From: Candidatus Rifleibacterium amylolyticum
Lineage (GTDB): Bacteria; Muiribacteriota; Ozemobacteria; Ozemobacterales; Ozemobacteraceae
Direction of reading: 5' to 3'
Assembly (NCBI GenBank): GCA_009917695.1
Contig: JAACJG010000006.1
Coordinates: 1-64,000, forward strand
DNA: 64,000 nt
The notes below the pieces were generated by a model, which did not search any database, was not told the DNA's origin, and worked only from the letters and a program-made list of their open reading frames with translations. Positions 476-21,322 of the stretch are shown piece after piece. A program made the translations under genes and the position numbers. The first letter of the stretch is position 1. Every line of letters starts with the position of its first letter.

Positions 476-1024
476 ATGAAACTTGCAAAAAAAATCATCT
501 TTTTTTCGCTCATGCTTGTTCTGGCAGCAAGCCAGTCCGGCTGTATACAAAAGGCGCTGTTCCCCGAGGCTCATTTTACCGTAGTATCTGTGACGCCAGA
601 CAAATTACGTGCAACAGTAACTGAAACGACCGCAGCAGAAGGCAGCGAGGAAACAACTGGAACAGAGACAAAAGTCACGCTGCCATCAACTGTTATCAGC
701 CTGAATTCTGATTCTCAGATACCAGCTGATCTGGTTTCCTTCTCGATTCATTATACGACCAGACTTGGCGAGGCCATTCCTGCTGTCGCAGTTCCAGAAA
801 CACCTTACAGCTTGAAAATTACTCCCGGTGAAGCGGTAGAAGTTCCAATGAGTCCTTATACAACCAGATTATATACTTTGCTTGAGCTCACCAGGGCCGA
901 TATTTCGCCGGTTAACGCAAGAATGACCTTTTTATTGAAAGATGGCAACGGCAACAAAGTTCATGTTGAGGCCAGCTGTCTTATTTATGCGACCTGGGAC
1001 GAAATCGAGGGTGATGGCGCCTGA
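476..1024 (+). CDS. Putative lipoprotein, unknown function
   Basis: ORF 182 aa; N-terminal signal with lipobox-like AASQSGC. Confidence 0.75.
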   Translation: MKLAKKIIFFSLMLVLAASQSGCIQKALFPEAHFTVVSVTPDKLRATVTETTAAEGSEETTGTETKVTLPSTVISLNSDSQIPADLVSFSIHYTTRLGEAIPAVAVPETPYSLKITPGEAVEVPMSPYTTRLYTLLELTRADISPVNARMTFLLKDGNGNKVHVEASCLIYATWDEIEGDGA

Positions 1025-1044
1025 TAGATTTTTCAACAAATGCA

Positions 1045-1082
1045 AAAAAAGAGTCGCCTCTGAACGAGGCGACTCTTTTTTA
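1045..1082. terminator. Rho-independent terminator, probably bidirectional
   Basis: AAAAAAAGAGTCGCCTC-TGAAC-GAGGCGACTCTTTTTT between convergent genes. Confidence 0.9.
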
Positions 1083-1105
1083 ATACTCAGTATTTCAGAG
1101 ACTGA

Positions 1106-1846
1106 TTACTGTTTATTCATTTTGCTTTTGAGGGCTTCCATCTGTTTGAAGGCATCCTGGGTGCGGGCATCGCCTTCGCCAAATTCATATTTCAGATTCT
1201 GATAGCGCAGGAACAGGCGATAAATGTCGTCTTCATCGACCCTGGGTTCCCATTCAGCGTCGGCCCATTCAGCTTTTTTGAGATCGACATTGAATTTATA
1301 GGGTCTGGCCATATCAGATTCGGGGTCGCAATGAGTAGCAAAACCAGAGCGAACGACCAGGCCGCGGTTTGTCTTGCGACTGCGGGCAGCAACAGCTCCT
1401 TCGGTGACCGACAGAGAAGTGCGCTTGCGTGAGCCAACGGCTATCTCAAATTCAGTACCTCTGATACCTGCGACGAGAGTCGGAGTTTCGATCTTGAATT
1501 CAGTTCCACGCTTGGTGAATTTATACCAGGTCTTGCCCTTGAAAACCTTTATGCTGAGCGGCTGAACTTCGACGAGCGTGCGTTCTTTGATGCGCATGAG
1601 CGTACCGTCGGCATAGACCAGAGTAGCCTTTGACTCTCTCAGGGTTTCAAGCAGGTCACCAGCATACAAATCGACAGATTGCGTAATGACATCTGTTCTG
1701 GCGCTGCCAACACGGGTCAGCTTCACCTGACCGCTGATTATTTCAAGCTTGGCATCGAGAGCCACCAGCTTGCTGTTTTCAGCCCAGGCAGAAGTAAAGC
1801 ACATGATAAAACATACAAACAGGAAGCACAGCTTGGTGCAGTTCAT
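1106..1846 (-). CDS. FecR-domain secreted protein
   Basis: Signal peptide and FecR-like core (GDLLETLRESKATLVYADGTLMRIKERT...TPTLVAGIRGTEFEIAV); ATG at 1846 has GGAGG upstream, so preferred over 1870. Confidence 0.8.
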   Translation of the reverse strand: MNCTKLCFLFVCFIMCFTSAWAENSKLVALDAKLEIISGQVKLTRVGSARTDVITQSVDLYAGDLLETLRESKATLVYADGTLMRIKERTLVEVQPLSIKVFKGKTWYKFTKRGTEFKIETPTLVAGIRGTEFEIAVGSRKRTSLSVTEGAVAARSRKTNRGLVVRSGFATHCDPESDMARPYKFNVDLKKAEWADAEWEPRVDEDDIYRLFLRYQNLKYEFGEGDARTQDAFKQMEALKSKMNKQ

Positions 1847-1941
1847 CGTATAAAGCCTCCTTGACCACAAAAGGTCGAATTACCGAAGTTTCCTAAATTA
1901 TAAGAATGGCCTGGCAAGGTGTCAATGGCAGGACGCGCAAA

Positions 1942-2553
1942 TTATTTGGTTGCGGGTTGTTCAGCCTGACGATTCTGTACATGTTCGGCAAAAATATTGG
2001 TCAATTCACCAATAGCGGCGTCAAGATCGTCGTTAATCACAGCATATCGATACTGGTCGCGATAATCCAGCTCTTTGCGGGCATTTTCGAGGCGGTGCCT
2101 GAGGGAATGTTCGCTGTCCATGTTGCGCTTGCGAATGCGGCTTTCGAGTTCGTCGAAAGTTGGCGGCAGAATAAAGATCATGATAGATTCAGGAAACTTC
2201 TCGCGAATCTTCATGGCTCCCTGCACATCGATATTCAAGATCACATGGCGACCGGCTTCGAGATTGTCGACGAGAAAACGGCGGGGAGTTCCATAATAGT
2301 TGCCGTGTACAAATGCCCATTCGGCAAATTCTTCACGTTCTATTGCCTTTTCAAACTCTTCGGCCGTGCAGAAAAAGTATTCCTGACCGTTGGTTTCGCC
2401 ACCACGTGGTGCGCGCGAAGTGGTCGAGATCGAATAGACGACGTCTGGCGCAAATTTGCTGACGATAGCATTGCACAAGACTGTCTTGCCGACCCCGGAA
2501 GGTCCGGAAACAATGAAAAGATAGCCCTTTCGGGGAGTTTGAGATGAGTTCAT
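1942..2553 (-). CDS. gmk: Guanylate kinase
   Basis: LFIVSGPSGVGKT P-loop, STTSRAPRGGETNGQEYFF. Confidence 0.95.
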   Translation of the reverse strand: MNSSQTPRKGYLFIVSGPSGVGKTVLCNAIVSKFAPDVVYSISTTSRAPRGGETNGQEYFFCTAEEFEKAIEREEFAEWAFVHGNYYGTPRRFLVDNLEAGRHVILNIDVQGAMKIREKFPESIMIFILPPTFDELESRIRKRNMDSEHSLRHRLENARKELDYRDQYRYAVINDDLDAAIGELTNIFAEHVQNRQAEQPATK

Positions 2554-2560
2554 CGTCGTA

Positions 2561-4099
2561 TTATTTTTTTCGGGAAATCAGTGACAGGCCGGTCATGGCT
2601 GCCGGTTTTTCGATACCAAGAAGTTCGAGCACCGTAGGTGCAATGTCGCAAAGGCGCCCTTCGGGCCTGAGTTCGTAAGATGATCTGGAAAGAATGCAGC
2701 ATGGTACAGGGTTAACCGTGTGTTCGGTAAAAGCCTCGCCGGTTTCGTTATCAACCATCTGCTCGGCATTGCCGTGGTCAGCGGTGATAATACAGTCGTA
2801 ACCCTTTTCGTAAGCGACCGGGATCGCCTTCGACAGCACGCAGTCGACGGTGCTGACAGCTTTCATGGCCGCTTCCATTATACCGGTATGACCAACCATG
2901 TCGCAGTTGGCAAAATTAACCATAATGAAACCGTATTTTTCGCTTCTCAACTTATCAACAAGATATTCGCCAACTTCAAACGCCGACATCTCGGGTTTGA
3001 GATCGTAGGTCTTAACCTTTGGGCTTGGTATCATGTGTCTGTCTTCGAGCGAGAAGGGAGGCTCATAACCGCCATTAGTGAAATAGGTGACATGCGCGTA
3101 TTTTTCGGTCTCGGCCAGTCGCAGCTGCGGAATTTTGTTATCAGCCAGAATGGAACCGAGAACGTTGTCGAGGCGCTGCGGGGCGAATATGACCGGAAAC
3201 TTGAATTCGTCAGAATAATGAGTGAAGCTGAGATAGTCTACCCGCATGTCTTTGCGCTTGAACTCTTCGAATTCAGGCTGAGTAAAGACCTTGCTGATCT
3301 GGCGCATGCGGTCGGCTCTGAAATTGAAGGCAAGAATGGTGTCGCCTTCGTCTATGGTCGCAACCGGGTCGCCGTTGGCTTCGATTACCACCGGTATGAC
3401 GAATTCGTCGGTCACGTTGACCTTGTAAGAAGCTTCCATGGCAAGAACCGGATCAGTGGCGCGGTTACCGACGCCATGCACGAGGGCCAGATAAGCCTTT
3501 TCCACTCTTTCCCAGCGATTGTCGCGGTCCATGGCGTAATAACGACCCGAAATGGTGGCGATTTGTCCAACCCCGATTTCACGGGTGCGTTCAACCAGAT
3601 CTCTGATAAAATGTACACCACTGGTCGGCGAAGTATCGCGGCCATCGGTGAAAGCATGAATGAAAACCCGGGTGAGTCCCTGGTCTTTCGCCAGCTTCAG
3701 AATAGCACTGATATGATTGATGTGGCTGTGAACGCCACCGTCGGAAACCAGTCCGTAGAGATGCAGCGCCTTGCCCGACTGTTTGAGGCGAGCGAAAGCT
3801 TCGAGCATGGTTTTGTTTTCGAAAAATGAGCCGTCTTCAATAGCGAGATTGATGCGGGTGATGTCCTGATAGACGATGCGCCCGGCACCTATGTTGAGAT
3901 GGCCTACTTCAGAATTGCCCATCTGGCCTTCGGGAAGACCGACATCCAGCCCTGAGGCGCCAAGACGTGTAAATGGGCGTTCTTCGAAGAGCTTGTTGAT
4001 GAATTCAGGATTAGCCGCATGAACAGCGTTGCCTTCAGTGGCTTCTGAAATGCCAAAGCCATCGAGAATGATCAGCAGGACTTTTGATTTTGCTTCCAT
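2561..4099 (-). CDS. gpmI: 2,3-bisphosphoglycerate-independent phosphoglycerate mutase
   Basis: ILDGFG, MGNSEVGHLNIGAGR, HAFTDGRDT, TADHGNAEQM motifs; 512 aa. Confidence 0.96.
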   Translation of the reverse strand: MEAKSKVLLIILDGFGISEATEGNAVHAANPEFINKLFEERPFTRLGASGLDVGLPEGQMGNSEVGHLNIGAGRIVYQDITRINLAIEDGSFFENKTMLEAFARLKQSGKALHLYGLVSDGGVHSHINHISAILKLAKDQGLTRVFIHAFTDGRDTSPTSGVHFIRDLVERTREIGVGQIATISGRYYAMDRDNRWERVEKAYLALVHGVGNRATDPVLAMEASYKVNVTDEFVIPVVIEANGDPVATIDEGDTILAFNFRADRMRQISKVFTQPEFEEFKRKDMRVDYLSFTHYSDEFKFPVIFAPQRLDNVLGSILADNKIPQLRLAETEKYAHVTYFTNGGYEPPFSLEDRHMIPSPKVKTYDLKPEMSAFEVGEYLVDKLRSEKYGFIMVNFANCDMVGHTGIMEAAMKAVSTVDCVLSKAIPVAYEKGYDCIITADHGNAEQMVDNETGEAFTEHTVNPVPCCILSRSSYELRPEGRLCDIAPTVLELLGIEKPAAMTGLSLISRKK

Positions 4100-17840: not shown

Positions 17841-17877
17841 AAAAAAAATCACCTGATGTCAAAAATGGCTTCAGGTG
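17841..17877 (-). terminator. Rho-independent terminator whose stem overlaps the 3' end of the acylphosphatase gene
   Basis: Minus strand CACCTGA...TCAGGTG followed by a T8 tract. Confidence 0.65.
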
Positions 17878-18139
17878 GTGAATTCAGCCTTTCGCGCTGC
17901 AATTCTTCTATTTCATCTACTCGCGACAGAAAAGATCCTTCTCTGACATCTGAAATAAAGTGCCCTATATGACCCATTGAGCCACGGGCCTCTATTTCGA
18001 CACTACCGTCAGGGTTGTTTTTAACCCAACCGCCAATGGGCAGTGCCCGGGCAACGCGCCAGACAAAACGCCTGAAGCCGACGCCCTGAACCCGTCCCCG
18101 CACCAGCAGACGAATTCTGATCAGCTCGTTCTCTGCCAT
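17849..18139 (-). CDS. acyP: Acylphosphatase
   Basis: VRGRVQGVGFRRFVWRVARALPIGGWVKNNPDGSVEIEARG. Confidence 0.93.
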   Translation of the reverse strand: MAENELIRIRLLVRGRVQGVGFRRFVWRVARALPIGGWVKNNPDGSVEIEARGSMGHIGHFISDVREGSFLSRVDEIEELQRERLNSPPEAIFDIR

Positions 18140-18141
18140 AT

Positions 18142-20025
18142 TTAACTCCTGCTCATAACAGTAGATGCCAGTTCAAAAAACCTGACAAAATCAGGCTGAT
18201 AAAGATACAGCAGCAGGTCACGGCGGCCATTGCGACTATGCAATAGCCGCAACAAAGAATAAGTATCGGTCTTCAGTCTCTTACCGCCAGCCAGCTGCAG
18301 GGCACGTTGTTCGAGACTGCCTACCAGCTGTGCATCGATCTGCCCCTTGAGCAGTCCGACGAACCGGCGCAGATTGACCTTTTCCGAGAGCATTACCAGC
18401 AGTGAATCGCAGAAGCGCTGATAACGCGCCAACAGACTCAGATCTTCTTCTTCAATGAAATGCGGTCTTTTGCCGCACCTGATATCTGAGTGAACTGACA
18501 CTATCACAGTTGTACGGCCATTACCGGCAAGATCGCGCAAAGCCCGCATATTTCCGGCAAAATCTTCATTCAACGAGCTTTCGCTTACCGACTCGACAAC
18601 GATCAGACGATCTCCGTCACCAGGCAGCATATCTGCCAGCTGCTGCAGATCAGCAACTGCAAACTCGCCACGGTTAGCATCGATGCCAGAAAAGACCAGA
18701 TTTTCACTGAGACCGTCTGCGAACTTTTCGATGGCGGCACCATATACTTTTCGTGCCTGTTCGACACTGGCGCTCGACTGCAATTGCGTCAGCATGTCAG
18801 ATAGATTCACAACCCCTGTCAAGGCTGCAGCCCTTGCCGCAAATTCACGCAGACCATGCTCATACGAAACATAGAGAACCGACACACTATTCTGAGCATG
18901 CAGTGCCTGCTGCATCAGCAGACTGCCCTTACCGCTTTCACGCGGCCCGGTTATAACATGCAACCCACCCGCGGTCCAGCCGCCACCCAGCGATTTGTTG
19001 AGACCGGCTGAAATCGATGGCAAAACCTTTGGCTGCTCTTTTAACCAGACGAGACTCTCAGCAATCTCTGATTTAAGCGGCTGAAATCGACCACTTGCAG
19101 CCTTTACTCCAACTGCTTTCATTTGACTGCCAGATGGCTTTGCCCCTTTTCTGGCAACTCCGGGCCAAGACGGCAATGGCATCTGCCTGATCTTGTCGGC
19201 AAGTCCCGGCACTGGCGGCAATGGCGTCTGTACGAATTTAACCCAGTTGAGTGTCTCCTGAATGCTTTCCTGGGGCGTGCGCTTCTTGCTGCAAAAATCA
19301 GAAAAGGCAGCTATACCGTAAGCAAAATGTGAGGCTCCGACACCAACCCTTGGCCGGTGCAACGCCGGATGATTGCTGCCCGGCAACAGCACCCGGTAAT
19401 CTTTACTGCATGACTGGGCAACAACAGTTCTCAGAGAAGTTTTAGTAGCACGGCCGTCGGTATTTCTGATATCACCAACGGCTCCGAGCAGGCGATAATA
19501 GTTCTGGTCGAGATCGTCGCCGCCCTCAAGACCAAGAACTCCAGCATGTATTTCCAGACTGATTTCTTCGGGAGTTGCATAAATAGCCATGGTCTCCTGA
19601 GGAATTCCAAGACGCTTCAAAGCTTCGATGCATTTGACCGTGTCATCATAAACCTGCTGAAAGCCGAGAACTTCGGTTGCCGGCTTATACTGATTACCGT
19701 TGATCAATATCAGGCAGTCTTCAGCAGCGATCAAGCGCTGGAGTTCACTGGCGGCAGGAAGCTGCGGCAGGCGGCGACCACCAATTTCGAGCTGAATTTC
19801 TACGCCGGCATAGTCGCAGCCTTCGAACAACAGATCGCGGGCTTTGCGCACAGCAAAGACAATAACCATCGGACCATACAGAGCGTTGCCCTGTTCGGCA
19901 CTGAAATAAAGACTGCGAAAAGCGCCATCCGGGCATGATTTTACGAACTCAGGCACCCGAACCAGATCACTGCGGGTTTCGCCGCCTTCCATATCGGCCT
20001 GATATAGAGAAACGAACTGCTGCAT
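18142..20025 (-). CDS. Degenerate AEP-primase-like domain fused to RecA/DnaB-like ATPase domain
   Basis: C-terminal ITGPRESGKGSLLMQQAL and RLIVVESVSE; N-terminal LYGPMVIVFAV, GIPQETMAIYATPEEISLEIHAGVLGLEGGDDL, LLPGSNHP; AGGAGG upstream of ATG. Confidence 0.55.
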   Translation of the reverse strand: MQQFVSLYQADMEGGETRSDLVRVPEFVKSCPDGAFRSLYFSAEQGNALYGPMVIVFAVRKARDLLFEGCDYAGVEIQLEIGGRRLPQLPAASELQRLIAAEDCLILINGNQYKPATEVLGFQQVYDDTVKCIEALKRLGIPQETMAIYATPEEISLEIHAGVLGLEGGDDLDQNYYRLLGAVGDIRNTDGRATKTSLRTVVAQSCSKDYRVLLPGSNHPALHRPRVGVGASHFAYGIAAFSDFCSKKRTPQESIQETLNWVKFVQTPLPPVPGLADKIRQMPLPSWPGVARKGAKPSGSQMKAVGVKAASGRFQPLKSEIAESLVWLKEQPKVLPSISAGLNKSLGGGWTAGGLHVITGPRESGKGSLLMQQALHAQNSVSVLYVSYEHGLREFAARAAALTGVVNLSDMLTQLQSSASVEQARKVYGAAIEKFADGLSENLVFSGIDANRGEFAVADLQQLADMLPGDGDRLIVVESVSESSLNEDFAGNMRALRDLAGNGRTTVIVSVHSDIRCGKRPHFIEEEDLSLLARYQRFCDSLLVMLSEKVNLRRFVGLLKGQIDAQLVGSLEQRALQLAGGKRLKTDTYSLLRLLHSRNGRRDLLLYLYQPDFVRFFELASTVMSRS

Positions 20026-20056: not shown

Positions 20057-21322
20057 TCATTCTCCCGGCATGCTCACACAGCTGAGCAGACGGCGATGAA
20101 AATCTTCGAATGAGCTCAGGCCAAAAAACATTTCAGCATTTCTGCCAAGAGAAAACACGGTCATGCCAGAGTTGGCAAGTTCGGTTACGTGACTGGCAAA
20201 GCTGACCTGATGGGCACGATTGAGACCATGCTCGATCAGACTCTCGGCCTTTTCAACATCTCCGGCGGCAAGAGCGCCAAGAATATCATCAACTGGAAAC
20301 GAAATACCATCGTAGTAACGACCCAAAACAGCTGCCGAATCCGCCGGTTTCTCGGCGATGGCCTGCATCACATCAGGGATCTTTTTGAGATCAGCAACGA
20401 ATGCGGCCGGGGCAAAGTCTGGCCCGATTGACCAGCTGCCTGATTCTGGTTCATCCACTACCAGCAGCAGAGTATCCTTGCGGCCGTGAACAAAAGTGAC
20501 CAGCTGCTGCAAAATGTTATCCTGAATCTTCTTGTGCTCGAGCATCTGCCAGAACAGGTTTTTGTTGCGGGCATCTGCTACTGAGCGATAATTAACGGTC
20601 AGAAAAAATCCCTCAGGCGCAACGGCAAGGCGGCTTACCGCTGATGATACGAGCTCGGCAAATCCCGGTTCGCGAGCAGCTGAGCTGGCTGAAGATTTTA
20701 CCGGGCCATAAAAGCAGCCGGCGATTCGCGCACTTTTACTGGTAAAAAGCCTTTCCAGCTCGGCAAAAGTAAGAGCTGAAGGCAAACCGCTGCCTGATGC
20801 CGAATTTATCAGAAAAGCGCGCTCTTCAGGTTCTTTTTGACTCGAAAAACTCAAGGCAAGATGATAATTGCTCAGATCGACAGTCTGCTGAGACGGTTCT
20901 GCCTGTATAAAGCCAGGCAGAATGAAGTTTTCGTCAGACACCATGCCAAGCCGTCGCCCCATGCGACTGAACAACTGAAGCAGGCTCACAGAAGAACCCT
21001 TCGCCGGGCGGGTCATCGAAGGATAGATTGTTTCGAGGCCCTGCCACTGGCTATGAATGCGGCGACGTGGAACCCAGGCTTCATACAGTGCGGCTGATGC
21101 TCCAGTTATACCCGTGCTGGCAAATATGATGAGATTACGCGAAGGTTCTCCGAGAAGAAGACCGCGGCGGCGGGCAACCGACTCTATTGGCAGTGGTTGA
21201 GCGTTGACCGGAGTGATCAGGTCTGTGCTGTCAACGGGCACCGGCAAAATCTGCTGAGCATCAGCACTGCCTCCAAAAAACACAACCGCAACCAGCAACA
21301 ATCCTAGCAGAATATGTCTCAT
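20057..21322 (-). CDS. Secreted alkaline phosphatase-like protein lacking canonical catalytic motifs
   Basis: GFFLTVNYRSVADARNKNLFWQMLEHKKIQDNILQQLVTFVHGRKDTLLLVVDEPESGSWSIG matches the PhoA-type GFFLMVEGGRIDWAGH...DTLLVVTADHETGGLSIG pattern; ATG at 21322 with GGAGG and signal peptide. Confidence 0.65.
   Translation of the reverse strand: MRHILLGLLLVAVVFFGGSADAQQILPVPVDSTDLITPVNAQPLPIESVARRRGLLLGEPSRNLIIFASTGITGASAALYEAWVPRRRIHSQWQGLETIYPSMTRPAKGSSVSLLQLFSRMGRRLGMVSDENFILPGFIQAEPSQQTVDLSNYHLALSFSSQKEPEERAFLINSASGSGLPSALTFAELERLFTSKSARIAGCFYGPVKSSASSAAREPGFAELVSSAVSRLAVAPEGFFLTVNYRSVADARNKNLFWQMLEHKKIQDNILQQLVTFVHGRKDTLLLVVDEPESGSWSIGPDFAPAAFVADLKKIPDVMQAIAEKPADSAAVLGRYYDGISFPVDDILGALAAGDVEKAESLIEHGLNRAHQVSFASHVTELANSGMTVFSLGRNAEMFFGLSSFEDFHRRLLSCVSMPGE

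Follow-up and report, generated by a model that had tools for sequence, protein, structure and literature searches.

In the 64,000-nucleotide stretch analysed here, hereafter the window, positions 18142-20025 encode a protein of a Candidatus Riflebacteria genome (family Ozemobacteraceae) in which a domain with the probable fold of the archaeo-eukaryotic primases (AEPs), devoid of their catalytic motifs, is followed by a DnaB-type RecA domain with an altered P-loop. With a probability of roughly 55%, we read this protein, P0001, as a domesticated mobile-element primase-helicase that has persisted not as a replicase but as a ring that binds nucleotide and DNA without priming. Probably, P0001 now does a new, non-enzymatic job. 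A description of the family was not found in the open-access literature searched.

18142..20025, minus strand: gene for P0001, a 627-aa fusion of a putative pseudo-AEP and a DnaB-like domain (open frame and family alignment)

The open reading frame has this exact span and zero internal stops, and the motifs quoted in the first-pass annotation (LYGPMVIVFA, LKRLGIPQETMAIY, TPEEIS, LLPGSNHP, GPRESGKG and RLIVVE) are all found in its translation. Sequence searches of Pfam, NCBIfam, PHROGs and PDB gave a consistent signal only at residues about 330-440, where a weak similarity to RecA/RadA/DnaB/KaiC-like P-loop domains was detected; for the N-terminal half no match rose above chance. The host genome encodes a normal DnaG and a normal DnaB of its own, and P0001 was therefore rejected as a substitute for either.

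The C-terminal half was assigned to the DnaB type by Foldseek (DnaB, best E 1.2e-12) and by profile comparison; of the DnaB and KaiC comparisons proposed beforehand, the former was borne out. Membership of RadA/Sms (TIGR00416, 32.5 bits versus a cut-off of 403) and of KaiC/FlaH (FlaH, 22.7 bits versus a cut-off of 215) was rejected; DnaB-type relatives scored better. The features of this half are as follows.

18145..19074, minus strand: C-terminal DnaB-type RecA domain, residues 318-627 (Foldseek and profile comparison)
18925..18948, minus strand: altered Walker A GPRESGKG, residues 360-367, with K366 invariant and A, S, G or F at 367 (alignment)
18859..18861, minus strand: E389, at the DnaB catalytic-Glu position, E in 16 and D in 4 (n = 20; profile alignment and columns)
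18592..18609, minus strand: Walker B RLIVVE, residues 473-478 (alignment columns)
18232..18234, minus strand: R598, invariant, at the arginine-finger position of both DnaB (KQRNG) and the AEP-DnaB fusions (KNRGG) (alignments)

The window copy does carry the Gly noticed earlier at the P-loop Ser/Thr position of GPRESGKG. In the 20 sequences of the family this position is occupied by Ala (n = 14), Ser (n = 3), Gly (n = 2) or Phe (n = 1), and the Walker A pattern GxxxxGK[ST] is absent from 17 of them, P0001 of the window included. The Ser/Thr of the P-loop coordinates Mg2+ in RecA-type motors. Adenylate kinases function with GKG[T/S], so the change in the P-loop is by itself no proof of an inactive ATPase. 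All 20 sequences retain the P-loop Gly and Lys, an acid at the catalytic-Glu site, the Walker B acid and the arginine finger. RLIVVE, which had been noted as hhhE in place of hhhhD, is present but does not represent a loss, the acid at residue 478 being E in 14 and D in 6 sequences. With the P-loop Lys, the catalytic-Glu-site acid and the arginine finger still in place, P0001 plausibly, and to judge from these residues likely, binds nucleotide, whereas hydrolysis may be slow or none. By the same alignment a single residue of the motor is altered, and the motor is no wreck. The suggestion that the protein is silent in both halves thus holds for the AEP motifs, which are all gone, but is overstated for the ATPase, in which only the P-loop Ser/Thr is lost and 3 of the 20 sequences keep a Ser.

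A primase half that is dead and a DnaB-type half that is still a helicase or translocase, tolerating Ala, Gly or Ser in its P-loop and acting in repair or fork restart, would also suit the residues kept in all sequences. Metazoan Twinkle, in which primase activity was lost and the helicase kept, provides a precedent (PMC7231222). Three of the orthologs read GKS. We nevertheless regard an active motor as rather unlikely, for the Mg2+-coordinating Ser/Thr is missing in 17/20 sequences and the C-terminal domain evolves at about twice the rate of the N-terminal domain, which is unusual for an essential motor.

The C-terminal domain is closest to the AEP-DnaB proteins of mobile elements, above replicative DnaB. 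By hhalign, the profile of residues 318-627 matched four AEP-DnaB fusion proteins over nearly the full domain length with a probability of 98.9 and an E of 1.5e-17, compared with 87.9 and 3.2e-6 for the host replicative DnaB family; single-sequence controls gave 2.8e-10 versus 2.6e-5, 7.9e-6 and 2.5e-4. A phylogenetic tree (unrooted, with few groups sampled and long branches) separated P0001 and the AEP-DnaB proteins from DnaB and two DnaB-like paralogues of the host by a supported split (97/96). The first of the four fusions is an 867-aa protein on contig G012:C37 of an Ozemobacteraceae genome, with intact C-I-D-M-D, SGRRGVH and GGGKTT. The other three are cyanobacterial plasmid proteins (Cyanobacterium, Geminocystis), and an exonuclease/DNA polymerase gene directly follows each of them. 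Pfam recognised the halves of the two fusion proteins scanned as AEP-TOTE (PF22548) and DnaB_C (PF03796).

Contig G012:C37 (L085, 7627 bases, with the fusion at 626-3229) resembles a mobile element, with pieces of DNA polymerase A at either end, and appears to be kin to cyanobacterial plasmid replication modules. Two more DnaB_C proteins are encoded in the P0001 host genome (L045:214-2499 and L046:772-2436), one of which has a long proline-rich N-terminus beginning with zinc-ribbon-like CxxC pairs.

No replication genes or polymerase were detected near P0001, which sits in a tight chromosomal operon with the following partners.

20057..21322, minus strand: upstream operon gene for an exported protein of the alkaline phosphatase superfamily, its catalytic residues lost in this genus (Pfam and alignment)
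17849..18139, minus strand: downstream operon gene for an acylphosphatase (neighbourhood comparison)

In five genomes the phosphatase gene stops and P0001 starts within a shared ATGA, and in many the P0001 and acylphosphatase genes overlap or stand a few bases apart. Genera g6, g7 and g10 encode at the upstream position a full alkaline phosphatase with catalytic residues (Pfam E 1e-53 to 1e-69, four proteins scanned); in the protein of the window genus and of g3 these residues are absent. In the window genus and one other, the DGM, DSA, D..H and DHG motifs are lost together with the segment around the DSA motif; the intact and degenerate types were compared between L023, L024, L026, L027 and L032 on one side and L035, L036, L038, L040 and L041 on the other. 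The upstream protein of the window genus and one other is thus predicted from its sequence to be a second pseudoenzyme of the same operon, under purifying selection. The phosphatase gene is missing from the P0001 operon in g9 and g11.

An exported phosphatase-fold protein and an acylphosphatase do not point to DNA, and as partners they count against a DNA role of P0001. A primase-helicase shell might instead have been recruited alongside them as a signalling or phosphate/nucleotide-sensing ATPase with no DNA role. Such a sensor would agree with the ATGA overlap, with the acylphosphatase gene close behind P0001, with the missing replication genes and with the acidic N-terminal domain (pI 5.5 in the window copy), in which DNA binding is not obvious from charge. 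It seems to us about as doubtful as the active motor, for operons can join unrelated genes, several genera (g9, g11) have no phosphatase gene in the operon, and Pfam recognised no transmembrane or sensor domain in P0001.

The N-terminal half was modelled and aligned with the following features.

19177..20025, minus strand: N-terminal domain of probable AEP fold, residues 1-283 (AlphaFold and Foldseek, without a sequence-level match)
19666..19674, minus strand: likeliest position of DxD (motif I), E118-V119-L120, with E/x/L,F,Y in orthologs (secondary structure and alignment columns; inferred register)
19558..19578, minus strand: position of SGxxGxH (motif II), A150-T-P-E-E-I-S156 (secondary structure and alignment columns)
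19366..19389, minus strand: LLPGSNHP, residues 213-220, putative counterpart of the AEP R-LPGS-H segment (alignment; inferred register)
19279..19356, minus strand: R..KVGVG.SHFAYG.AAFSD.C.KKR, residues 224-249, where conservation in the family is highest (alignment)

The AlphaFold model of residues 1-283 (20 sequences) reached a pLDDT of 91.3 and a pTM of 0.90. In a Foldseek search of PDB with this model, ranks 1-18 were all AEPs of several distinct kinds, including mycobacterial Prim-PolC, archaeal PriS, poxvirus E5, human Pri1, the LigD polymerase domain and the S-2L PrimPol. The first non-AEP match was an unrelated kinase at rank 19, followed by a CRISPR-associated Prim-Pol at rank 20. The AEP matches were weak (E 0.023-0.18, TM 0.26-0.39, prob up to 0.96), and other folds started at E 0.19. 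On the strength of the model, residues 1-283 probably adopt an AEP fold, in line with the scaffold recognised in the first-pass annotation, and together with the DnaB-type C-terminal domain this supports the primase-helicase fusion architecture suggested there. No sequence similarity of the domain to any AEP profile was found by Pfam, PHROG, PDB or hhalign, and hhalign revealed no sequence-level link to CRISPR-associated or plasmid AEPs. Because the Foldseek E values are weak and AEP sequence similarity is absent, joint descent of both halves of P0001 is hypothetical.

A radical SAM domain was indicated in the N-terminal half of 8/20 members (best E 1.3e-4); it was rejected, as the window protein scored 14.8 bits versus a cut-off of 29.5 and the fold was absent among the listed structural matches. 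A chromosomal TPR-AEP protein with the layout of the CRISPR-associated Prim-Pol occurs in many Riflebacteria (L088-L100 and L107), and in L101 a Cas1-like open reading frame adjoins its gene.

The motifs of AEPs are hDhD/E (I), sxH (II) and hD/E (III) (PMC4538821). They were located in P0001 by the order of its secondary structure, with a strand at 118-120, a helix at 122-138 and a hairpin at 146-159. Across the 20 orthologs, residues 1-283 contain no conserved acid-x-acid pair. The DxD site had been read as VFA; residues 55-57 are probably the wrong site and E118-V-L120 the likelier one, but the observation that there is no DxD stands. The reading of the motif II site as TPEEIS agrees with the alignment, and its His is replaced by S, T or C in 20/20 orthologs. 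Within the LLPGSNHP segment (L213-L-P-G-S-x-H219) the AEP Arg has become Leu. The upstream motif III Asp, described before as not evident, is indeed missing, no conserved acid being present at the candidate positions 185-188 and 202 of the inferred register in the 20 sequences. Directly after the LLPGSNHP segment, the highly conserved block from R224 to R249 contains basic and aromatic residues. The AEP catalytic motifs are thus present in 0/20 sequences, and with all three lost throughout, no ortholog is expected to prime by the known mechanism. The words "this copy" were misleading, since no intact paralogue was found in the same genome and no intact orthologue among the 20 sequences. The loss being family-wide and under purifying selection, neither of the refuting outcomes named beforehand came about.

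The likeness to AEPs might be due to chance, the N-terminal domain being a different or unrelated RRM-like domain that was never a primase, and the missing AEP sequence and profile matches and the Foldseek E values, all above 0.001, are what this would predict. We hold it improbable, as the best 18 structural matches are all AEPs of several kinds, with other folds only from E 0.19, and as the closest relatives of the C-terminal domain bear an N-terminal AEP.

The P0001 gene was identified as a single copy in 20 of the 24 Ozemobacteraceae genomes among 40 surveyed in the phylum, and in none of the 16 genomes of other families. Two matches in genome G013 proved to be one frame, G015 (also Ozemobacteraceae), where a contig edge leaves only a fragment of the gene, is additional to the 20, and the three Ozemobacteraceae genomes without any match have a completeness of 64-75%. 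Two conserved peptide patterns scanned against about 85,000 species genomes returned 19 loci, every one an ortholog of the P0001 kind, and no relatives of the N-terminal domain were found in phages or viral contigs. Identity of the orthologs to the window protein ranges from 78% down to 36%. Divergence from the window copy followed that of replicative DnaB (Spearman 0.85, 16 genomes), which fits vertical inheritance. Two orthologs on contigs deposited as Erysipelotrichia bacterium and Methylomirabilis (L025, L027) cluster with Ozemobacteraceae, and the names of these records look wrong.

The family is under purifying selection. By the Nei-Gojobori method, with dS near saturation and the values accordingly rough, dN/dS was 0.043-0.049 for the N-terminal and about 0.10 for the C-terminal domain; for comparison, DnaB gave 0.07 and a nearby Mur ligase 0.05. 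The C-domain of the genus g4 ortholog (L033:2107-3030) has a far longer branch (1.61) than the others, and the N-domain of this ortholog is ordinary. P0001 is not a decaying gene, and decay or recent capture of a mobile element, which the motif loss and the mobility of the AEP-DnaB relatives might bring to mind, is highly improbable in view of the intact conserved frames in 20 genomes, a dN/dS comparable to those of Mur ligase and DnaB, the conserved operon and the motif loss shared by all orthologs, none of which is an intact form beside which the window copy would be the decaying one.

The history of the domesticated, non-priming ring may be depicted as follows. The ancestor would have joined an AEP domain to a DnaB-type motor, as do primase-helicases carried today by plasmids and phage-like elements. 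Domestication would have taken place in the ancestor of the Ozemobacteraceae, after which the gene was chromosomal and vertically inherited as a pseudoenzyme. The AEP half would have lost primer-making and been retained as a structural module, its most likely ligand being DNA or nucleotide. As for the DnaB-type half, it most likely forms a ring that holds nucleotide by the P-loop lysine and the arginine finger and hydrolyses it slowly if at all; P0001 may then be a nucleotide-gated ring with a DNA-binding or regulatory role. More tentatively, P0001 could be a core chromosomal protein that strong selection maintains throughout one bacterial family with a dead primase site and an altered motor, its nucleotide-gated function coupled via the operon to a cell-envelope (pseudo)phosphatase. 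If the nucleotide-gated reading is true, the family would represent pseudo-replicase regulators of a new class. With its motifs lost and its scaffold under tight constraint, the chromosomal and vertically inherited P0001 offers a clean case for what the AEP fold does besides making primers, and for how selfish replication enzymes turn into host proteins.

Among known systems, the AEP-DnaB proteins of mobile elements share with P0001 an AEP domain followed by a DnaB-type RecA domain, and their C-terminal domains are alike over the full length, including the arginine finger. They differ in having intact DxD, SGxRGxH and GK[ST], a longer middle region and, on plasmids, a polymerase neighbour. P0001 has none of these features, and its gene is chromosomal. 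AEP-helicase fusions described so far are replication enzymes nearly exclusive to mobile elements, and those of the PrimPol-PV1 supergroup (PrimQH and others) join an AEP to DnaB-, RepA- or MCM-type motors, as in P0001 (PMC5862659). The latter is motif-less and vertically inherited, in contrast to these near-exclusively mobile fusions (PMC5862659). Host replicative DnaB shares the RecA fold, the arginine finger and the catalytic-Glu position; the N-domain of DnaB is absent from P0001, most orthologs no longer carry the P-loop Ser/Thr, and the AEP-DnaB proteins are closer to P0001 than DnaB is. The AEP-related origin-binding domains are proposed relatives of AEPs from which all catalytic activity is said to have gone (PMC4538821) and thereby a precedent for an inactive primase domain, but they stand in another protein context. 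Metazoan Twinkle likewise lost primase activity and kept the primase-helicase architecture (PMC7231222). Its primase is of the TOPRIM type and not an AEP, and its motor is active. P0001 would be the AEP counterpart of Twinkle.
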